Source: Anaerolineae bacterium (GTDB lineage Bacteria; Chloroflexota; Anaerolineae; J102). From it: a stretch of DNA of 48,598 nucleotides. The notes under the pieces were generated by a model, which did no database searches, had not been told where the DNA came from, and saw nothing but the letters and a program-made list of their open reading frames with translations. The stretch is taken from NCBI GenBank assembly GCA_026991225.1, contig JALXCB010000123.1, positions 1 to 48,598 of the forward strand. The letters are read 5' to 3'. Both the position numbers and the translations under genes were made by a program. Positions 19,310 through 48,195 of the stretch are shown in pieces. The stretch's first letter is position 1. Every line of letters begins with the position of its first letter.

Positions 19310-19425
19310 CTCTCATCTTTCAGGCGCTGCGCGGCCTGCCGGAATTGGCACCAGTGCCGCCCGTCTGCGGGCGGACGGTTGCCGGGGAGTCATCGGGCCG
19401 GTCCCTCGTCCCCTCTGGATGAGAA
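19310..19425 (-). ncRNA. SAM-I (S-box) riboswitch aptamer
   Basis: The minus strand contains the S-box core in order. P1 5' arm TTCTCATC is followed by CAGAGGGG, GAGGGACCGGCCC, GATGACTCCCCGGCAACC (kink-turn and P2), a perfect P3 hairpin CCGCCCG-CAGA-CGGGCGG, and GGTGCCAATTCCGGCAGG. A P4 hairpin and the P1 3' arm GATGAGA follow. All hallmark conserved blocks of the SAM-I class are intact. It lies between a consensus promoter (19491-19463) and a terminator before a HAD gene, and so should control the whole HAD-adoK-ahcY-metK operon. Confidence 0.96.
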
Positions 19426-24569: not shown

Positions 24570-24769
24570 GGAAGCGTCCCAGATAATCAGAAAATTCGGT
24601 CATGCGGGCTCCACCCGGCGCTGAAGCGCCGGGCTACAAAACAACGCCGGGTGAACCCGGCTTTGGGCGCGGGCTGGCTCTGAAAGCCCCCTTGAGGGGG
24701 CGCCGTTTCCAGCCCGGATGTTCACCTCCGGGGCGCAGGCGCAACGCGCCCATAATTTGGGACGCACCC
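24570..24769. repeat. Hairpin-chain element 2 (MITE-like, inverted ends)
   Basis: Left end GGAAGCGTCCCAGATAATC and right end CATAATTTGGGACGCACCC are imperfect inverted repeats. Between them lies a chain of hairpins: CCCGGCGC-TGAA-GCGCCGGG, GCCGGG-TGAA-CCCGGC, GGCT-CTGA-AAGCC, GCCCCC-TTGA-GGGGGC and GGCGCAGGCGC-AA-CGCGCC. No target duplication was found. With composite copy 5 it fills the 510-bp gap between dinG and the beta-helix gene; no protein gene is seen there. Confidence 0.75.
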
Positions 24770-35095: not shown

Positions 35096-36151
35096 TCATC
35101 CAGCAACCTCTGCGGTCTCGGCCTCCTGCGCGGCTTTCTCGAAATCCGACCAGTGCAGCCGGGCCCGGAAGAAGTAGTAGACACCCAGGCCCGTGATGGG
35201 AAGCCACAGCGCCGCGTGCAGCACCAGGGTATAGGCCGTAGCGATGGCCGGGTCCACGCCGCCCACATCGACCAGGACCTTGATGCCGGGCGCATCGAAC
35301 GTGCCGATATAGCCGGGCGCAGAAGGCAGCGTCGTAAACAGATTGACGATGCCATTCATCAGCATCAGGGTGATGAACGAGACGCTGAAGGGAAACGCGT
35401 GCATCACGAACCAGTATTTCAGAGTCTCCGCCAGCCAGACCAGCACCGAGGTGACGAAGATCATCAGCACGTCGAAAGGGCTCTGCAAGGAGGCCAGGCC
35501 AAAAAGAAACCGGTCGACCATGTGATCGACCTTGAGACGAATCGACGCTGGCAAAAAACGCTCAGCCACGGGCGAGTACAATTTCATCACCCAGTGGGAT
35601 CGGGCGGCCAGGGCGATGAAGAAAATCAGGGCCACGCCGAAAATGACGCTGAGCGCGATGACGAAGGTGCGGTATTGGGCGGGAATGTTCGGGACAAAGG
35701 GAAGGGCCAGGAAAACGAAAAGCAGCATCACCAGCCCGTCGAAGATGCGCTCCACCAGCACCGTGGCCAGACTGCCGCTGATAGGAATGTCTTCATTCTT
35801 CTTGAGCACGTAAGAGCGGATGACCTCGCCCGCTCGGGCGGGGTAAATGTTGTTGCCGGCATAGCCGATGCAAACCACTGGGAACAGTCGTTTGACCGGG
35901 ACGGGTTTGAACTGGCGCAGCATGTAATGCCAGCGCCAGGTGCGCAGCCACACGCCCACGAAATAAACCAGCACGCCCGGGATGATCCACCCGTAATTGG
36001 CCTGCTTCATCAGGTTCCACACCAACGCCAGGTTGAGCCCGCGCAGGGCGGCATACAGGAACAAGGCGCTGATGCCGATCCCGATCCAGATCAATAGCCG
36101 CTTGACGAAATTACGGCGTAAAAAGTCGCTAATGGATGAACGTTTTGACAA
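35096..36151 (-). CDS. Lysylphosphatidylglycerol synthase-type transmembrane (UPF0104) protein
   Basis: Polytopic membrane protein of about eight helices, 351 aa. It has the family motif CIGYAGNNIYPARAGEVIRSYVL (RAGE) and the second-half motif LFTTLPSAPGYIGTFDAPG. Members without the soluble synthase domain are thought to translocate or help transfer lipid-linked sugars. The neighbouring ugd gene supports a glycan role. The start codon is TTG at 36151, since no ATG lies near, with an extended -10 promoter 35 bp upstream. Confidence 0.85.
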   Translation of the reverse strand: MSKRSSISDFLRRNFVKRLLIWIGIGISALFLYAALRGLNLALVWNLMKQANYGWIIPGVLVYFVGVWLRTWRWHYMLRQFKPVPVKRLFPVVCIGYAGNNIYPARAGEVIRSYVLKKNEDIPISGSLATVLVERIFDGLVMLLFVFLALPFVPNIPAQYRTFVIALSVIFGVALIFFIALAARSHWVMKLYSPVAERFLPASIRLKVDHMVDRFLFGLASLQSPFDVLMIFVTSVLVWLAETLKYWFVMHAFPFSVSFITLMLMNGIVNLFTTLPSAPGYIGTFDAPGIKVLVDVGGVDPAIATAYTLVLHAALWLPITGLGVYYFFRARLHWSDFEKAAQEAETAEVAG

Positions 36152-36239: not shown

Positions 36240-36335
36240 GGTGTCGCCGCCACTTTTTGCCACGAAGACGCGATGAAAAGCGAAGGCGCGAAGCATTTTT
36301 CTTTATATCTCCTTCGTGTCGCCGTATCTTCGTGG
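36240..36335. repeat. Inverted repeat, CTTCGTG family D
   Basis: CCACGAAGACGCGA at 36260-36273 faces TCGCCGTATCTTCGTGG at 36319-36335, with CGAAGGCGCGAAGC inside. It occupies the first part of the 402-bp gap between the UPF0104 gene and the GT39-PA14-NHL gene. Related CCTTCG octamers occur at 12108 and 32375. Confidence 0.65.
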
Positions 36336-36396
36336 TTTTTGCTCGCTAAGAAGGGGGGCGTGTATAGTTGCAAGCTTCGTTGCTCCAGCCTCTCAA

Positions 36397-36470: not shown

Positions 36471-36555
36471 ACCATTTTAGCGCCATTTGCAATGGCGAGA
36501 GGGTTTTCAGGGGCGAAGGCGTCGGTTAGCGAGAGGCCGACGCCTTCGGTTTTTT
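36471..36555 (+). ncRNA. Candidate ~85-nt small RNA
   Basis: Between a promoter and a strong plus-strand terminator lies a short non-coding segment. It begins with a perfect hairpin CGCCATT-TGC-AATGGCG (36481-36497). Then comes a single-stranded purine-rich linker (AGAGGGTTTTCAGGGG), then the terminator stem. The layout (hairpin, exposed GA-rich linker, terminator) is that of trans-acting small RNAs. The 3' end overlaps the stop codon of the convergent GT39-PA14-NHL gene. No known family is recognised. Confidence 0.45.
36514..36555 (+). terminator. Strong intrinsic terminator (plus strand)
   Basis: Stem CGAAGGCGTCGG/CCGACGCCTTCG (12 bp, perfect), 11-nt loop, GG then TTTTTT. The T tract is only on the plus strand, where no protein gene ends, so it must serve an RNA gene or act mainly as a hairpin at the 3' end of the minus-strand gene. 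Confidence 0.8.
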
Positions 36556-39500
36556 ATTGTCCGAATGCGGTGACTCGACAGAGATCAGGATCGGTAACCA
36601 CAATCATGCCCGCGCCCGCAGCCACGCCCAGCGTGCGATTGAACCGCCCCTCGCCCGCGCCCTTCCCGCCCAACTGGCCCCGAGGCCGCAATCCCGGCTC
36701 ATACGCCAACACCCGCCCTTCTTCCGGATCGGTGAGAAAGATGCGCCCGTCGGGAAGCGTGGCGATGTGGGGCGATTCCACCGTATTGGAGCGTGGCCCG
36801 GCCGCCGTGCGACTCGCGCCCGTCTCCCGATTCAACACCCACACCACGCCTGCGGCCGGATCGGCAGCGTAGATGAAGCCGTCGGGACCCAGTACGACGT
36901 CGGTGGGCTGGCCGCCATCCCGCGGCCCGGCGAAGGCGGCCAGGAACGCGCCCTCCTCATCCGCCTGCACCACCCGACCGCCGCCTGTATCCGCAATGTA
37001 GAAATCGCCGTCGGGTGCGATATCCAGCCCGCGGGGATGGTAGAGCGCCAGGTCGCGGCCGATCTCGCCCAGGAATTCGCCATCGCTCCACAGAGAAATA
37101 ACGCCCGTGGCCGCGTCCAGCACGGCGATGGTTTCATCCGGGGTGATGGCGATGTCGAAAGGCTCGGTAAACTGGCCCGGCCCATCGCCCGCTTCGCCCC
37201 AGGCGTCCGCGAAAGCCCCCTCCTCATCCAGGACGACGACGCGATGGTTGCCTGTATCGGCCACGTAGACCATGCCATCCCCATCCACAGCCACGCCCGC
37301 GGGGTGGGATAGCTGGTTCTCGCCCGATCCGCACGCTCCGTACGTCCACAGCACGGGCAGATCGAGGGGCGCGAAGTCGCCCAGTTCGCCCGAAGGCGGC
37401 GCGGGGGGATGTGCGCTTTCGGGCGGGACTTGAGGTCCGGTGGGATCCAGTCCCGGCTGGAATGGCGTCGGGGTTTGGGGCAAGGACGGCAGGATGGCGT
37501 CGGAGAGTGCGCCCTCGACCGGGCGCAGATAGCGGCTTGGCAGCAGGGTCTTCTTGCCGCCGGGGGGTTGCCACCACAGCTCCATGGCTCGGGAGCCGCC
37601 CAGATCGCTGTACAGCACCTCGATATCATGCCATCCTGACGAAAGCTCGATCGCGCCCTCCTTGTATTCCGCGCCATGCTGGCCGCTGTTATCCACCACG
37701 AACTTGCCATCCACATACACCAGCGAGCCGTCATCGGAGCGGGAGCCAAAAATATAGACGCCATCGACGGGCGCGGCCACCTTCCCCACCCAGCGCACGG
37801 AATAAGGCGAGGGCACGGCGTCATTGGGCGCGATAAAGAGATCGCGCTGGACCTGCACCGGCTCGCCCGTCCAGTCCGGGCTGCGATAGTAATATCCTAC
37901 CAGCCCGTTGGATGCGCCGGGCAGGGTGTAGAAGGCGCTGGCCGGAATGGGTTGAAGCCCGGCGTCGCGCGGCGTCATCCACGCCAGTTGCAATCGGCCC
38001 GGATGCTCTCCCGCGACATACTCCAGTCGCAGGGCCTGGAACCCGGCGGCCAGCGACATCATCTGCTTGGCGCTCCCATTCTCCACCGACAGGACTTCCC
38101 GGTCATCGAGATACAGGGTCGCTCGCCCGCCTTCCGCAGTCAACGCCAGACGATAGTCGCCAAACGTCGGGGCCAGCAACGCGCCTTCATAAATTGCGGT
38201 GAAGGGAGGCAGCAAGGGCTGATCATCGGGCGCGGTAAAGTCAAAATCAATGGCCGCGACTTTGTCCTGACGCACGGACGGTTGGGTTCGGTCCGTCCCA
38301 GCCCAATAGGTCACGGTCAGCCCTTGGGCCTCGACAAAAGCGGAGGCGGGGATGAGGTAGCTGAGGAACAGAGTGCGGCCATAGCGATCCTGGTGGGCCT
38401 GGAAGATGCCAGTGGGATAAAGCTGCTGCAACAGGGCCAGCATTTCCTCATCCTTGGGCTCGAAAATGAAAAGAGCGTCGCCCGCGGGCGGCTGGCGCAG
38501 AGGGATATGCTGGCTGGGGTTCAGTGGAATGACATCGCGTTCGCCGCCGATGAAGCGAATGGCCGCGTGGCCGACATATTGCGGGTCGAGATAGATGGTC
38601 AGGTCATCGGGTTGCCGGGCCAGAAATTCGCCGATGGCCGACTCTTCGGGGCTGTACGCGTACCAGACCGCGGGATTCACGGCCTGCACGCGGAAATACG
38701 CGTTCAGATTCGCGCCCATGACGATGACGACCAGCGCCGTGAGCAGGGCGAACAGGGGACGGGTGCGTTTCTCGCCAAAGGCCCGTCGCCACGCCAGCCA
38801 TAAGAGTGTAAACGTCACCGCGACCAGCAGGTAGATGAGGGGGATGAGGCCGATGGGACGGCGGGCGTTGGGCGCTTCGTGGGCCACGGTCAGCACAGCC
38901 AGGCTGGCCACGCTGCCGAACCAGAGGAGATAGAGCGCGGGCAGTTCCTTCCAGAACCAACGCGCGGCCCAGATCAATCCCAGCACGAACAGAATTCCCA
39001 CCACCGCGTGGAGCATGGGCGCGCCGGGCAGATTGTTCAGCGCCGCCATGTCGCCCTGTGCGTTGAACATGAGCAGAACTTTGCGCAGGTTCGACCAGAC
39101 AGGTGCGTAGCTCCCCGCGGCTTCCACATCCCGGAAGACAGAGATGCGATTCATGCGGATGAGGAAAATCGACCAATGGCGGACCACATACGCGGCCAGG
39201 GGCGCCGCGGCCACGACTGCGCCCGCCAGGAAAATCCCCATCCCCTCCAGGCCCCGCCGCCATCGCGCCCGATGAGCCAGCAGCCAATAGGCGAAATAGG
39301 CGGCCATGAAGAAGGGGATGACGCGGTAAGCGGTGTACGTGTTCAGCCCCAGGGCCAGCAGCCCGCCCGAAAGCGCCCACCAGCGCCTGCGTCCCGTCTT
39401 CAACGCCTTGATCAGCAGCCACACCTGCAAGCTCAGCACCAGCGGCACGAGAATAAGCTCGTAGACAATGCGGCTGAAGGTGATATGCCAGCGGTCCGCG

Positions 39501-40246
39501 GCCAGCAGCGCGGCCGAGAGCAGGGCGATGCGCTGGTCGTAGAGCTCGCGGGCCAGGGCGTAGAAAGCCAGAATGGTGAGGACGCCCGCGGTGGCGGAGA
39601 CCATACGCATGGCGACCACGCTCTGGCCGAAGAGATGGATATAGAGGGCGATGAGATAGGTGAAGAGGGTGGCCTGGCCCTCGTTGGTCTCGGCGTAAGG
39701 GGTGTAAGACGCGCCCGCCAGCCATTTCAACGCGTCCAGGCCGTTGTTGGCCTCGTCCGATTGCAGGCCATGGGGGTAGAGATTCAGCGCATAGAAGCGG
39801 GCGAAGATGGCCACGGCCAGAATGAGCGCCAGGGCGAGCATGACCGTGCGACGGCGCAGCACGCCCGCGTAAAAGGGCCGCGCCGCTCGAACGTCGGCCT
39901 CGGGATCGGGCGAAGGCTCATCCCACCAGACCCCAGCGAAAAACAGCAGCATCCCCCCCACCCACAGCCAGAAAGCCCAACCGCCGTACTGTTCTCGGGC
40001 GAAGCCAGCCAGCGCGGCCATGAGGACCAGCGCGCCGCCCGCCACCGCCGTTCCCCAGCCGATGCGATCCCAACGACGCCGCGGGGGCAACGCGGGCCAG
40101 CCCCGCGGGCCCGCAGCAAACCAGGCGAACACGCCCCCCACAATCAGGTAAAGGAAGACGCCCGCGCGCACATTCCCTTCCCCCAGCCATTTTTGGGCGA
40201 AGGTTGCCAGGATGAGCGCAAGCAGCAGGCCCAGAAGAGAGCGCAT
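36554..40246 (-). CDS. GT39-like membrane glycosyltransferase fused to two PA14 domains and an NHL propeller
   Basis: A 1230-aa protein. The N-terminal ~560 residues have about a dozen hydrophobic helices and the GT39/PMT-like first loop with acidic pair (LYPHGLQSDEANNGLDALKW), suggesting a polyprenyl-phosphate-sugar-dependent transferase. It continues with two PA14-like beta domains (EGALLAPTFGDYRLALTAEG...; WVGKVAAPVDGVYIFGSRSD then DGSLVYVDGKFVVDNSGQHG). A Pro-rich linker and an NHL beta-propeller follow (SHPAGVAVDGDGMVYVADTG, FTEPFDIAITPD, YHPRGLDIAPDGDFYIADTG). The start at 40246 (MRSLLGLLLALILATF) is chosen; residues upstream are repeat DNA. It may act on surface glycans or glycoproteins. 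Confidence 0.82.
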   Translation of the reverse strand: MRSLLGLLLALILATFAQKWLGEGNVRAGVFLYLIVGGVFAWFAAGPRGWPALPPRRRWDRIGWGTAVAGGALVLMAALAGFAREQYGGWAFWLWVGGMLLFFAGVWWDEPSPDPEADVRAARPFYAGVLRRRTVMLALALILAVAIFARFYALNLYPHGLQSDEANNGLDALKWLAGASYTPYAETNEGQATLFTYLIALYIHLFGQSVVAMRMVSATAGVLTILAFYALARELYDQRIALLSAALLAADRWHITFSRIVYELILVPLVLSLQVWLLIKALKTGRRRWWALSGGLLALGLNTYTAYRVIPFFMAAYFAYWLLAHRARWRRGLEGMGIFLAGAVVAAAPLAAYVVRHWSIFLIRMNRISVFRDVEAAGSYAPVWSNLRKVLLMFNAQGDMAALNNLPGAPMLHAVVGILFVLGLIWAARWFWKELPALYLLWFGSVASLAVLTVAHEAPNARRPIGLIPLIYLLVAVTFTLLWLAWRRAFGEKRTRPLFALLTALVVIVMGANLNAYFRVQAVNPAVWYAYSPEESAIGEFLARQPDDLTIYLDPQYVGHAAIRFIGGERDVIPLNPSQHIPLRQPPAGDALFIFEPKDEEMLALLQQLYPTGIFQAHQDRYGRTLFLSYLIPASAFVEAQGLTVTYWAGTDRTQPSVRQDKVAAIDFDFTAPDDQPLLPPFTAIYEGALLAPTFGDYRLALTAEGGRATLYLDDREVLSVENGSAKQMMSLAAGFQALRLEYVAGEHPGRLQLAWMTPRDAGLQPIPASAFYTLPGASNGLVGYYYRSPDWTGEPVQVQRDLFIAPNDAVPSPYSVRWVGKVAAPVDGVYIFGSRSDDGSLVYVDGKFVVDNSGQHGAEYKEGAIELSSGWHDIEVLYSDLGGSRAMELWWQPPGGKKTLLPSRYLRPVEGALSDAILPSLPQTPTPFQPGLDPTGPQVPPESAHPPAPPSGELGDFAPLDLPVLWTYGACGSGENQLSHPAGVAVDGDGMVYVADTGNHRVVVLDEEGAFADAWGEAGDGPGQFTEPFDIAITPDETIAVLDAATGVISLWSDGEFLGEIGRDLALYHPRGLDIAPDGDFYIADTGGGRVVQADEEGAFLAAFAGPRDGGQPTDVVLGPDGFIYAADPAAGVVWVLNRETGASRTAAGPRSNTVESPHIATLPDGRIFLTDPEEGRVLAYEPGLRPRGQLGGKGAGEGRFNRTLGVAAGAGMIVVTDPDLCRVTAFGQ

Positions 40247-40271
40247 GGGTGGGTTCAGGCGACACGAGCGA

Positions 40272-40456
40272 TGGCTCGCCGATACGGATGAAAGCGCCTC
40301 GCGGCCAGGGCGGCGCGGGAAGCCAACACGTGAAACGTGATGCGTAATGCGTAATGAGCTCACGTTTCACGTTTTCACGCATCACGTCCGCTGCTGGCTC
40401 GCTCAACGTCGGCATGGCGATCCTTCCGCAACCGCAGCCAACATTCTATTTTCCTA
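40272..40456 (+). repeat. Composite intergenic element, copy 6
   Basis: Plus strand: M1 GCTCGCCGATACGGATGAAA, M2 CTCGCGGCCAGGGCGG then GCGCGGGAAGCC, heptamers CGTGAAA CGTGATG CGTAATG CGTAATG, spacer AGCTCACG, return arm TTTCACGTTTTCACGCATCA, M4 GGCTCGCTCAACGTCGGC and GCGATCCTT, M5 CTATTTTC. It fills the gap between the methyltransferase and GT39-PA14-NHL genes. The methyltransferase stop (TAG, minus, 40448-40446) is formed by M5. Confidence 0.85.
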
Positions 40457-42402: not shown

Positions 42403-42582
42403 CAAAATAGGCGCCACGAGCAAAGACTCGCCGATACAGACGAAAATGAGGACACGGATTGACACGGCCTTCGGTCACAGATTTTCAAATTATCCGTGTT
42501 TTTCTGTGTTCATCCGTGTTCTATTCTCGGAACAGCGAGTGGCAGGTGACGATTCACAAAGAACCTGCCACTTGCCACCTGC
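42403..42582 (+). repeat. Composite repeat cluster upstream of hutU 3' end (copy 9)
   Basis: It holds TTTTCAAAATAGG (M5, reversed), M1 (CTCGCCGATACAGACGAAAATG), a palindrome built on ACACGGATTGACACGG/CCGTGTTTTTCTGTG (42450-42525), CTATTCTCGGAACAG (M5-like), then family E heptamers (ACCTGCC ACTTGCC ACCTGCT). The hutU TGA stop is at the edge of family E. With the two preceding features it accounts for the 780-bp gap after the DUF2442 gene. Confidence 0.7.
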
Positions 42583-44415: not shown

Positions 44416-47235
44416 TTATTCTAACGGAAAAACGACGTGATCGGCCAGGATGTTGCCCGCGTCGTCGATGAAAGGCAGGCGGCGGCCGGTGAGGGGGTCG
44501 TAGAGGCCCACTTCCAGGCCAAAGGGGCCTTCCACCGCCGTATTGGGGAAGGGAAAGGCGTGGGCGTCGGCGATGGTTTCGCCCGCGACCCACGAGGTGG
44601 TGGGATGGTCGCCGTCCGCCGGTTCGCGGTCGTCCTGGGCCAGGATATCCCCGTCCTGGTCGATGAGATGGACGAAGACCGAGTAATGGATGTCGGTAGG
44701 GCCCGCGGGCCGCCAGTAGAGGATGAGATTGATGGGCGCGCCCGGCTCGGCCCGGGCGATGAGATCATATCCAGCCAGCTTATGCCCGCCCTGCAGCGTC
44801 AGGTCGAGGGGATGCTGGGGATTGGGCGGCTGGAAGTCGTGAGGACGGGCTTCGATGGTCACTCGTCCCAGGCCCAGAGCGTCTTTCCCAGCCCAGGCGA
44901 TGCGCTGGCCGCTGGCAGGGTCGAAGAGCCCGGCGATGAGGTCGTACTCGCCCGCGGGCAGCTCGGCGGGGACGCGCAGTTTCTGCTGACTGCGCAACAC
45001 AGCTTCGGGCCACTGGTTGGTGGGCAGCCAGGGGATGGGCGGGCCCTCCATCCCCGCGATCATCTGGCCCCCATCGTCCAGCAATTGCAGAAAGACGTAG
45101 CGCTCGGGCGCGAGCGGGCCGTAGGACCGCCAGTAGAGGTCGACAGGGATGTCGTCGCCCGGCAAGAAAGGCCCTTCGCCCCGCTCGTAGCCCAGAAATG
45201 CGACGCCGTCGCCCTGGATGTCCGCGGGATGATCGGGCCGGGGGAGGATGTCGATGGCGTGGGGCAGCGCCAGGGTCTGCACCCAGGCTTCGGGCGTGGG
45301 GTTGGGGCCATCGGTGGCGATGGGGCTGAGATCAGGCCGCAGCAGGGCCATGACGAGATCATACTCGCCCGGCGGCGTGCCCGCGGGCAGGGTGAGGCCG
45401 ATGCGATCGCGGTTGCGCCAGGGTGCGGGCGGTCCTTCATCCAGCGCAGGTTCCGGATGGGCGAAGGGCGTCACGTCGCGCTGCGCCCAGCGATTGCCAT
45501 CGAGCCCGCGCAACCAGAGCGAGTAGGTCAGATCAGAGGGATTGATGGGGCGATCGCCCTGCCAATCCAGCTCGAAGAAGACGCGGTAAGGCGTTTCCAC
45601 ATACCATCCATCGGCCAGACTGACGCCATTCTCCCAGGTCTGGGGTGTGACGAGCTCGGTCTGACGCCCGGCTCCCCGGGGTTCATCCCAGCCGGTGAGG
45701 CGGGTTTCTTCCCCAAACCAGCGGTTGAGAAGCTGATAGCTGTGCTGACCCAGATAGGTTTCCACTTTGGTCTCGAAGATGCCGCCCAGGGAGAGATGCT
45801 CGGGCAACCAGACGCCTCCGCGCTGGCGCAGGGCGTCCAGGGTGCGTTGCACCGCGGGCGTCCAGTCGGGGTCGGGGCTGAGGACGATGGGCGTGGTTTC
45901 GTTGCGCGGGGGGATGGGCGCGGCGTCGGCGTTGACCAGGGTGGGATAGAATTCCCAGGGCAGGTAGGCCAGGAAGTAGCCCGCCTGCCAGGGATAGATG
46001 ACGAAGACGCTGTCGCCCGGGCGCAGGTTTTCCGTCACGGTGTGGATGAGCGGGCGGTAGTCGCGGTCGGCGTAGCGGGGCGTGGTGTAGAATGCGGCCA
46101 GGCTGACGGCCTGCGTAGCGAAGAGTGCGGTCAGGAAGATTGCCCCCGCGGCCCGTGACTCCAGCCACAGGCTGCGGACGCCCAGGGCCAGGAGCAGCCA
46201 CAGCGCGGGCGCGGCGAAGTACAGCACCCGCTCGAAGTGTTCGGGGATGAAGGGCGCGCGTATCTGCTGCAAAAATCCGCCCAGCAGAGCGATGATCAGG
46301 ATGGTCGTCAGATAGGCCGCCGGGGAAGTCAACGCGCTTAAGCGCGTTTTGAAACCCGCTTCAGCGGGTTTGGCCCACGCCAGCGCGGCCAGGGGCGGGA
46401 TCAACAAAAGCAGCGCCCAGGCCCACCACACACTCGCCCATCCCTCCAGATGCCCGACAGTGAAGGCGCTGAGATGCCGCGCCACATAAGCCAGCAGGGG
46501 CAGGGGCGCGTCGTTGTCCTTGACCACTTTGTTGGGCACATAACTCAACAACTGCGGGCCTGCGTACAGGGCCCAGGGCAGATAGAGCAGTCCCGCCGCG
46601 ACCAAGCTGCCCAGGAACGCCTTCCACCGCTCCCGGCGGGCGATGAGCATCCACAGAAATTGCGCCGCGGGCAGCAGAACGAACACATACAGGGTATAAA
46701 GCCCGGCCAACACGCTCAGCCCATACGCGATCCCCCACTTCCAATCCTCCCTTTGCGTCTTTGCGTCTTTGCGTGAGATCATCCCCCAGCGCCAGCCCGT
46801 CCACAGCGCGGCCAGGGCCAGCATGCCAGCCAGGCCATACATGCGCACCTCCTGGCCGTAGTAAATGGCCATGGGATTCACCGCAACCAACAGCGCGGCC
46901 AGGTAGCCCGTGGACCTGTCCCGCATATCCCGACCCAGAGCGTAGGCCAGGGGAATGGCGGGCAGGCTGAGCAGGACGCTGAACAGGCGCAGGGAGATGG
47001 GATTGAGCCCGAAGATAAGGCTCCAACCGCGCAACAGAGCGTAGTAGAGGGGTGGGTGGATGTCGGCCGCGGTGCGGACCAGCATCTCCGTCAGGGGCTG
47101 GGCCGCGAACCAGACCGTGTACCCCTCATCCCACCACAACGGCTGAAAATCCAGACGAATGAGACGCAGCCCCAGGCCCAACAGGGTGATGAGGGCGAGG
47201 ATGAGGATGGGGGAACGAAAACGAGGGGCGCGCAT
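44416..47235 (-). CDS. GT39-like membrane glycosyltransferase with C-terminal beta modules and repeat-derived insertions
   Basis: A 939-aa protein. The N-terminal ~440 residues have about eleven membrane helices and the GT39/ArnT-like first loop LDFQPLWWDEGYTVWFAAQP (Asp36-Glu37), suggesting sugar transfer from a lipid carrier. The rest is extracytoplasmic, with three related beta modules marked by YDLVMALLRPDLSPI, YDLIAGLFDPASGQRI and LEVGLYDPLTGRRLPF. Two loops are encoded by repeat DNA: residues ~154-162 (RKDAKTQRE) and ~289-302 (AKPAEAGFKTRLSA). The start at 47235 gives a proper cytoplasmic charge before helix 1. Acceptor and sugar are unknown. Confidence 0.85.
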   Translation of the reverse strand: MRAPRFRSPILILALITLLGLGLRLIRLDFQPLWWDEGYTVWFAAQPLTEMLVRTAADIHPPLYYALLRGWSLIFGLNPISLRLFSVLLSLPAIPLAYALGRDMRDRSTGYLAALLVAVNPMAIYYGQEVRMYGLAGMLALAALWTGWRWGMISRKDAKTQREDWKWGIAYGLSVLAGLYTLYVFVLLPAAQFLWMLIARRERWKAFLGSLVAAGLLYLPWALYAGPQLLSYVPNKVVKDNDAPLPLLAYVARHLSAFTVGHLEGWASVWWAWALLLLIPPLAALAWAKPAEAGFKTRLSALTSPAAYLTTILIIALLGGFLQQIRAPFIPEHFERVLYFAAPALWLLLALGVRSLWLESRAAGAIFLTALFATQAVSLAAFYTTPRYADRDYRPLIHTVTENLRPGDSVFVIYPWQAGYFLAYLPWEFYPTLVNADAAPIPPRNETTPIVLSPDPDWTPAVQRTLDALRQRGGVWLPEHLSLGGIFETKVETYLGQHSYQLLNRWFGEETRLTGWDEPRGAGRQTELVTPQTWENGVSLADGWYVETPYRVFFELDWQGDRPINPSDLTYSLWLRGLDGNRWAQRDVTPFAHPEPALDEGPPAPWRNRDRIGLTLPAGTPPGEYDLVMALLRPDLSPIATDGPNPTPEAWVQTLALPHAIDILPRPDHPADIQGDGVAFLGYERGEGPFLPGDDIPVDLYWRSYGPLAPERYVFLQLLDDGGQMIAGMEGPPIPWLPTNQWPEAVLRSQQKLRVPAELPAGEYDLIAGLFDPASGQRIAWAGKDALGLGRVTIEARPHDFQPPNPQHPLDLTLQGGHKLAGYDLIARAEPGAPINLILYWRPAGPTDIHYSVFVHLIDQDGDILAQDDREPADGDHPTTSWVAGETIADAHAFPFPNTAVEGPFGLEVGLYDPLTGRRLPFIDDAGNILADHVVFPLE
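46331..46371. repeat. Two hairpin units inserted in frame within the GT39-like gene
   Basis: AACGCGCTTAAGCGCGTT (46331-46348) is a perfect palindrome, and AAACCCGCT-TC-AGCGGGTTT (46352-46371) a near-perfect one. Both have the CTTMAG centre typical of the intergenic hairpin-chain elements. The reading frame continues through them without a stop. Confidence 0.75.
46751..46774. repeat. Three perfect CTTTGCGT octamers within the GT39-like gene
   Basis: CTTTGCGT occurs three times in tandem (24 bp, so the frame is kept), encoding KDAKTQRE on the minus strand in a loop between membrane helices. This octamer belongs to the same style of degenerate 7-8-bp repeats that fill the gaps between genes. 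Confidence 0.8.
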
Positions 47236-47251
47236 GAAGAAACTCAGCGAA

Positions 47252-48181
47252 TCATTGCGCCGAGAGGAAGCCAATGTAGATCTCCCGGTTGGGGTTGGCC
47301 GGGCTGGTGGTGAAGGTGACGATGGGGGAACGACGCACGCCGCCCGCATCGATGAGGTAAGCCTCCCAGTCCCCATCGCCAGGATTGAAGATCTCCAGCT
47401 TCAAGTTGTACTGCACCCGGTTGCCAAACTCCTCATCCGGCGGCGCGGACCATTGGAAATAAGGCAGGGAGGGTTCGCTGGTGGCGACGACAACGCCATT
47501 GCGCTTCACTTGCAGCCGCCAACCGGGGATGGGATAGCCTTCGCCCGTGCCGCCGTACACCTTTACCCACAGCGTCAGCCAATCGTTGTTGGTGGGCATG
47601 AAGATGGGCCCGATGCCCCGGTAAAAGGCCAGAGGAGGCGTGGGCGTGGGAGGGATGGGCGTGGGCGTGGCTGTGGGCAGCGGGGTGGGCGTGGGCACGC
47701 TGATGACCGGAATATCGTTCAGATTGCCGCTGATCTCGACCAGATCGCTGCGCACCCAGCCCTCCTTCTCATTCGCCAGACAGCAGATGCGCCACCAGGT
47801 GCCTGTGCCGTTGGCTCCAGTCACATTGAATGTCTCCCCCTGCTTCGCCGTGCCGATCACGGGGAAGACGAGCCCCGGCCCACTGCGTACATTGACGCTG
47901 TCGGCGGTGATGCGCACCTGAGCCGCGGGCGTGGGCGTAATCGTGGGCGTGGGCGAAGGGGGAACGGGCGTAGGCGATGGAATTGGGGTGGCGGTGGGCG
48001 TCGGCGTGGGCGTAATCGTAGGCGTGGGCGTCACTGTGTTCGTAGGCAGCAGGGTGGGGGTGATGGTGGGCGTAGGCGTGGCCGTGGGCGCGACGACCAG
48101 CGCCCCTACGCTGCCGCCACAACCAGCCAACAGCATGACCAGAAGCCCGAACAACAAAACCTGCCACCTGCTACCTGCCAC
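47252..48181 (-). CDS. Lipoprotein with Thr/Pro linker, SH3b domain and C-terminal beta domain
   Basis: Product 309 aa. The signal sequence VLLFGLLVMLLAGCGG carries a lipobox (LAGC), so it is predicted to be lipid-anchored outside the membrane. A ~55-residue TPTPT-type linker follows, then a bacterial SH3 domain (ITADSVNVRSGPGLVFPVIG then GWVRSDLVEI), a second Pro-rich linker, and a C-terminal beta domain (~180-309) resembling that of the upstream gene product. No ATG is near; GTG at 48181 with AGGTGG upstream is the likely start, and both lie inside a family E heptamer repeat. SH3b domains often bind peptidoglycan. Confidence 0.8.
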   Translation of the reverse strand: MAGSRWQVLLFGLLVMLLAGCGGSVGALVVAPTATPTPTITPTLLPTNTVTPTPTITPTPTPTATPIPSPTPVPPSPTPTITPTPAAQVRITADSVNVRSGPGLVFPVIGTAKQGETFNVTGANGTGTWWRICCLANEKEGWVRSDLVEISGNLNDIPVISVPTPTPLPTATPTPIPPTPTPPLAFYRGIGPIFMPTNNDWLTLWVKVYGGTGEGYPIPGWRLQVKRNGVVVATSEPSLPYFQWSAPPDEEFGNRVQYNLKLEIFNPGDGDWEAYLIDAGGVRRSPIVTFTTSPANPNREIYIGFLSAQ

Positions 48182-48195
48182 GAGCCACCTGCTAC
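48159..48195. repeat. Heptamer repeat, family E (ACCTGCC), spanning a gene boundary
   Basis: ACCTGCC ACCTGCT ACCTGCC ACGAGCC ACCTGCT ACTTCTG. It contains the stop codon (TAG, 48194-48192) of the upstream gene, and the ribosome binding site, GTG start and first codons of the lipoprotein. The same family flanks the hutU stop at 42555-42583. Confidence 0.8.

Follow-up and report, generated by a model that had tools for sequence, protein, structure and literature searches.

Cyanobacteria have short repeats in tandem (heptamers, STRR) as well as small dispersed ones, mostly intergenic. The best-known cases in which a mobile repeat enters a gene in frame and the protein is kept come from Rickettsia and Wolbachia, which are intracellular and live under weak selection. 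Rickettsia palindromic elements (RPEs; Ogata et al. 2000) are short palindromes that lie in frame within unrelated conserved genes and are considered neutral or slightly harmful (PMC2229807, PMC10969869). Here, we describe such insertions in a free-living phylum: nine genes of one genome are affected, several families of repeats take part, and empty sites can be seen when nine genomes of the genus are compared. With this material one can test the route by which repeats get into proteins, the kinds of loop that accept them, their rate of decay and whether they are ever useful. With a probability of roughly 0.86, the main repeat, a palindrome that we call el77, is a non-autonomous MITE-like element that multiplied in the genus and whose insertions into the loops of gene products are tolerated, trimmed and left to drift; the gene studied here hosts its left arm.

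The window is the whole stretch of 48,598 nucleotides that was analysed, and it belongs to genome G000. The gene of interest, hereafter the window gene, and the repeats within it are as follows.

44416 to 47376, minus strand: gene for a GT-C-fold membrane glycosyltransferase (PMT_2, GT39-like) that hosts both repeat segments, from the open reading frame, the domain and the structural model
46748 to 46778, minus strand: left half of el77, in frame, encoding SRKDAKTQRE, from nhmmer, cmsearch and the gap in orthologues of other genera
46751 to 46774, plus strand: three perfect CTTTGCGT octamers, part of the el77 arm, from the sequence and TRF (period 8, three copies, 100%)
46331 to 46348, no strand assigned: palindrome 1, AACGCGCTTAAGCGCGTT, in frame (part of KTRLSA), from the sequence, as an 18-mer dispersed in the family
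46352 to 46371, no strand assigned: palindrome 2, AAACCCGCTTCAGCGGGTTT, in frame (KPAEAGF), from the sequence, with related palindromes in the family

The minus-strand reading frame (44416-47376) stays open over 986 codons, and the true start is likely the Met at 47235. The encoded protein carries a PMT_2 domain (PF13231, E 3.5e-11). An AlphaFold model for which 13 orthologues were supplied as input reached a mean pLDDT of 86, and its Foldseek matches were ArnT and oligosaccharyltransferases, which are GT-C enzymes. The sequence-only reading had placed three perfect octamers and two hairpin units in this GT39-like gene, and both are present there and exact. It had also placed them in frame between membrane helices, and the model agrees: the octamer-encoded segment, read as I-SRKDAKTQR-ED, is predicted at residues 154-164 between helices 133-152 and 165-179, and the hairpin-encoded segment, read as A-KPAEAGFKTRLSA, at residues 288-301 between helices 279-286 and 305-326, both with low confidence.

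The octamers had been taken for an intergenic-type repeat inserted in frame into a loop, and this part of the claim stands; they are not a tandem array, however, but the left half of a 77-bp palindrome. The 15-mer CTTTGCGTCTTTGCG matched the window twice where 0.01 matches were expected, and CTTTGCGTCTTTGCGT had 19 sites in the genome against none for the reversed control. The octamer block reaches the terminus GTGAGA (46778), which is the diagnostic end of the larger element and is common to the flanks of the genomic CTTTGCGTCTTTGCGT sites. A free-standing octamer array was ruled out, as the ends and the spacer match el77. A profile built from 14 el77 copies at other loci, with copies in the window gene excluded, matched the window-gene site at 4.9e-8, and cmsearch matched it at E 4.9e-4 (window 46778-46701). 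A further expectation was that the peptide KDAKTQR would always come from octamer DNA. A degenerate codon pattern that allowed many synonymous codons was run over 400 Chloroflexota genomes, and all 62 of the listed places, not all of them inside genes, proved to be octamer or near-octamer DNA, two with slightly diverged units. Separately, genomes of family f25 (G031, G240, G278 and G313), which are distant Chloroflexota, contain many octamer arrays, with up to 33 pattern matches.

In its short form, el77 is the 77-bp palindrome TCTCACGCAAAGACGCAAAGGCGCAAAGGGAAAAAGAAGCAAAGAATTCTTGGCGGTCTTTGCGTCTTTGCGTGAGA, with ends TCTCACGCAAAG...CTTTGCGTGAGA, a near-perfect stem of octamer units and inverted ends TCTCACGC/GCGTGAGA. 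With one mismatch allowed, CTTTGCGTGAGA occurred at 104 genomic sites, compared with 17 in the control, and many of these sites form facing pairs ~76-78 or 141-159 bp apart; the paired inverted ends delimit elements of two sizes, 76-77 bp and roughly 141-159 bp, and among the listed sites the paired ends were element-sized only. The long form (~150 bp) has another palindromic repeat, with TGCCACC-like units, nested at its centre. Heptamer repeats of TGCCACC/ACCTGCC type, related to this nested repeat, were also seen at window positions 48159-48192 and at L004, L005, L009 and L157. The el77 consensus folds at -41.9 kcal/mol (z -9.5). A covariance model, with at most 150 candidates scored per genome, found 52 copies in this genome and 6-123 in eight congeners; the element also occurs in several, though not in all, of the family's other genera. 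One further palindrome of this kind lies in the window.

36258 to 36337, no strand assigned: second el77-like palindrome, with variant CCACGAAG arms, between the open reading frames at 35096-36151 and 36554-40363 (cmsearch E 0.0026)

This intergenic palindrome is possibly a sister family of el77. The 16-mer and the peptides KDAKTQR and AKTQRRK were absent from the papers covered by a literature search that was not exhaustive. Two accounts of the element itself were rejected. An RNA structure under selection was dismissed because no pair in the el77 alignment had changed on both sides and Rfam gave no match at the locus. A repeat adapted to coding, i.e., selected to be free of stops in six frames, was set aside as well: the consensus holds 2 stops (at its ends only), where palindrome-preserving shuffles hold 5.0 (fraction 0.098); 43% of octamers at the same GC are stop-free as tandems, and individual el77 copies hold 2-6 stops.

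We compared the window gene with its orthologues. The el77 profile matched five of the six congeneric orthologues, G000 counted, and always with the left half (G011, 9.6e-9; G000, 4.9e-8; G013, 7e-8; G014, 2e-4; G008, 0.003). It matched neither G010, of the same genus, nor any of the nine orthologues from other genera. In the protein alignment, the octamer insert faces a gap in the orthologues of other genera; that is, the clean gap that had been predicted for this segment is found in all nine. The el77 spacer is retained more in G011 and G013 than in G000 and G014, and in G014 and G008 the insert shows decay. The G010 orthologue has no recognisable insert, so that the moment of entry within the genus is not pinned down.

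The hairpin segment gives a less simple picture. The two palindromes in the window gene are exact and fold at -21.3 kcal/mol (z -4.3); the window holds 3 close palindrome pairs, compared with 0-1 in 20 simulations. With up to one mismatch, the 18-mer of palindrome 1 is present in 6 of 20 family genomes, the reversed-pattern control being almost empty, and repeats of the palindrome 2 type occur in 5 of the 20, with an empty control. The palindromes are real and dispersed, but no clean gap can be demonstrated for this segment because loop length varies in all orthologues. In G014, the hairpin pair is degenerate, and in G008 an unrelated heptamer-like stretch occupies the position of the G000 hairpins. 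Elsewhere in the window (24614-24661) we observed a paired-hairpin repeat, CCCGGCGCTGAAGCGCCGGG-ctacaaaacaac-GCCGGGTGAACCCGGC, with near copies at L136:2798, L142:34 and L196:1734; CTAC (GTAG on the other strand) adjoins its first hairpin, as in GTAG-tagged REPs, and the repeat looks REP-like.

Both segments could in principle have arisen in place. For the octamers, slippage would have expanded native codons locally, with no insertion of a dispersed repeat. Three exact head-to-tail copies are what such a process would leave, and el77 arms seldom have three units of ACGCAAAG, which may point to a local change in unit number. However, the block bears the el77-specific terminus TCTCACGC and the inner GGGA, the G011 copy has the el77 spacer AAAAAGATGC, and the profile match runs past the octamers. 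This element-specific boundary largely refutes an origin by slippage, which we regard as very improbable. For the hairpins, the segment may instead be a native variable loop that was converted to palindromes or carries them by chance. Orthologues vary in length here (that of G007 is about as long, with unrelated residues), and the 18-mer sits in the seemingly ordinary coding sequence of other open reading frames, which we take to be GlpB-like and aminotransferase-like. Against this, chance would hardly yield two adjacent perfect palindromes in G000 and a near-perfect pair in G013 (palindrome 1 perfect, the other with a changed loop), and copies of the 18-mer are scattered through the family. 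We give a native loop clearly less than an even chance; the hairpin segment is likely an insertion.

Insertion of el77 is not confined to the window gene. Pieces were found inside eight further credible G000 genes, nine in total with the window gene. The eight encode HypF, a PTPS-related membrane protein, a TMEM260-like transferase, a GT2 glycosyltransferase, Maf, a second PMT_2 protein, an O-antigen ligase and a DUF2298 protein. The insert peptides start at the el77 boundary, and the left end is used in all three frames, as SHAK.. (frame 0), LTQRRK.. (frame 1) and SRKDAK.. (frame 2); two genes carry the element in the opposite orientation, read as FASLR... Annotators should note that SRKDAKTQR, LTQRRKGA, SHAKTQRR and FASLRLCV are repeat-derived and are not to be taken for conserved motifs. 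Among orthologues of the eight genes, el77 was present in 9 of 43 congeneric and 0 of 17 other-genus sequences, a count in which the Maf (G013) and DUF2298 (G011) orthologues were used as DNA. In the protein alignments these two stand in a wrong frame and are to be disregarded; most el77-free orthologues of the eight genes have gaps there. The Maf insert corresponds to a gap of ~20 residues in aligned crystal-structure homologues, and ~40 residues of HypF are unmatched at its insert. Just before the el77 piece in HypF (L001) stands the peptide NADERGKHKNKTIRVSPRPSA, which looks like another repeat, distinct from el77, within this insert; it may be related to the ATCCGTGTTC decamers (window 42492-42521). 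The O-antigen ligase (L179) and DUF2298 (L198) proteins also carry heptamer-type inserts (VQCSVFSIQ and VFSVQYSVFSEQ) elsewhere in the same protein.

Some of these loops differ in content between species. The O-antigen ligase loop holds el77 in G000 and G015, TTCAGTGTTCAGTATTCAGTGTTCAGT in G009, CAGTTAGCAGTTAGCAGT in G011 and CACCACGGGGACACCGAGG in G008, and little or nothing in G010 and G014. Where the second PMT_2 gene of G000 has el77, G008 and G012 have heptamers of the TATTCAGT type, a pattern dispersed in the family (54 listed places against 1 for the reversed control). In the TMEM260-like gene, el77 lies at the same loop but in different reading frames in G000 (L129, G000:C8) and G015 (L243, G015:C66), which suggests independent insertions. 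We offer, as a tentative idea that we hold to be somewhat less probable than its opposite, that several unrelated repeat families, among them octamer palindromes, TTCAGTG-type heptamers and paired hairpins, go on entering one and the same set of permissive loops and that inserts already there are refreshed from genomic copies, which would make the loops long-term repeat reservoirs in a free-living lineage.

The sequence-only reading spoke of repeats domesticated within the protein. This word does not survive the comparison, given the near-neutral protein change, the trimming, the decay in sister species and the strong depletion from genes. Genic copies number 9 of ~69, whereas ~60 (60.4) were expected from a coding density of 88% measured on the window only; these counts rest on the loci around CTTTGCGTGAGA sites, and a copy that breaks a gene would count as intergenic. 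Genic copies are also shorter than the others (median 42 against 80 nt, p 5e-4). True domestication would mean that the inserted peptides were recruited and selected for a function, e.g., as a charged cytoplasmic loop of the glycosyltransferase. The presence of the insert in five of the six congeneric window-gene orthologues would fit this, as would the R-x-x-A-x-x-Q core kept in all five and the G000-G011 insert, whose 31 identical nucleotides form the longest such run in that gene pair. However, pN/pS was 0.75 in the inserts compared with 0.28 in the flanks, the window-gene insert has decayed in two species and is absent from a third, and the equivalent loops of other genes hold unrelated repeats across species, which implies that no particular peptide is needed; we consider domestication improbable. 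On the evidence of open frames and near-neutral substitution, both of which were seen in the sequences, the inserts appear to be tolerated rather than domesticated. Synonymous divergence within shared inserts was about a third of that in the flanks (0.15 against 0.45), a comparison of few pairs that share genomes and are biased toward recognisable copies, and so low a value is not expected of a single old insertion that has simply aged neutrally. Inserts may have been renewed through gene conversion or re-insertion, with the dozens of copies in the genome as the source, or may have spread between species by recombination. This would be a later process on top of insertion and not an alternative to it. 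The low synonymous divergence and the different frames of el77 in the TMEM260-like loop speak for it, but the pairs are few and recognisable copies are over-represented among them, and we think refreshment rather unlikely.

Our main reading is the following. The short, non-autonomous el77 (77 bp) has multiplied in this Caldilineales-like genus and in some sister genera, with most copies lying between genes. Copies that survive within genes are those in solvent-exposed loops, where a net insert length divisible by three keeps the frame open; deletion then trims them, in many cases down to one arm, and they drift. Loops may be hot spots because selection removes insertions elsewhere. In the window gene, the left arm probably entered the loop between membrane helices once the genus had split from related genera, and in several species it is now in decay; the second palindromic repeat, in another loop, was probably acquired similarly. 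Mobility, in trans and through a transposase, now or formerly, is inferred; no target-site duplication, autonomous partner or strain-level polymorphic insertion was found. At the genic empty sites, nucleotide divergence is too high for a target-site duplication to be read. The gene had been presented as a direct view of how such repeats spread; spread was not seen directly, with neither a target-site duplication nor a mover identified. Five Y1_Tnp proteins are encoded in the genome (PF01797 matches above the cut-off). Next to the five genes, no convincing el77 was found, the matches there reaching E 0.016-0.79 only, and a RAYT was rejected as the mover on this ground. Beside one Y1_Tnp gene (L292, G000:C128), CCCGGAGCTGAAGCTCCGGG hairpins recur about every 180 bp, possibly a RAYT with its REP array. 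We also noted a SAM riboswitch on the minus strand at window 19310-19425 (85 bits).

We finally compared el77 with described repeats. The cyanobacterial STRR and small dispersed repeats may resemble it in general form. REP/REPIN sequences with RAYT transposases (PMC3733652, PMC3116915) are likewise palindromic and dispersed, and Y1_Tnp is encoded in the genome, but el77 is longer and has no terminal GTAG/CGTC tag: this tag is absent from the 14-copy alignment, whose ends are TCTC/GAGA. Bacterial MITEs (ERIC, Correia/NEMIS and RUP) share more with el77, being short, non-coding and mostly intergenic, with terminal inverted repeats, dozens of copies and some in-frame fusions. In the same way, el77 is short, has terminal inverted repeats and encodes no transposase of its own; unlike for MITEs, neither a target-site duplication nor an autonomous transposon was identified. 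The likeness to RPEs and the Wolbachia palindromic repeats goes further. Like these, el77 is a short, dispersed palindrome with inverted terminal repeats and a stable stem-loop, found both between and within genes. As with RPEs, it lies in frame in conserved, unrelated proteins (nine genes in G000, with 0 of 17 and 0 of 9 other-genus orthologues carrying it) and is, as far as known, tolerated rather than beneficial. The two differ in host, a free-living Chloroflexota rather than intracellular Alphaproteobacteria, and the likeness is one of kind, with an el77 profile and octamer drawn from Chloroflexota only. In addition, el77 is shorter (77 bp against about 105-150 bp) and consists of 8-bp units, its genic pieces are mostly one arm with all three frames of the left end in use, and some of its loops are occupied by repeats of different families, depending on the species. 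The phenomenon is RPE-like, with elements and a phylum that are both new, and it is broader than first noted.
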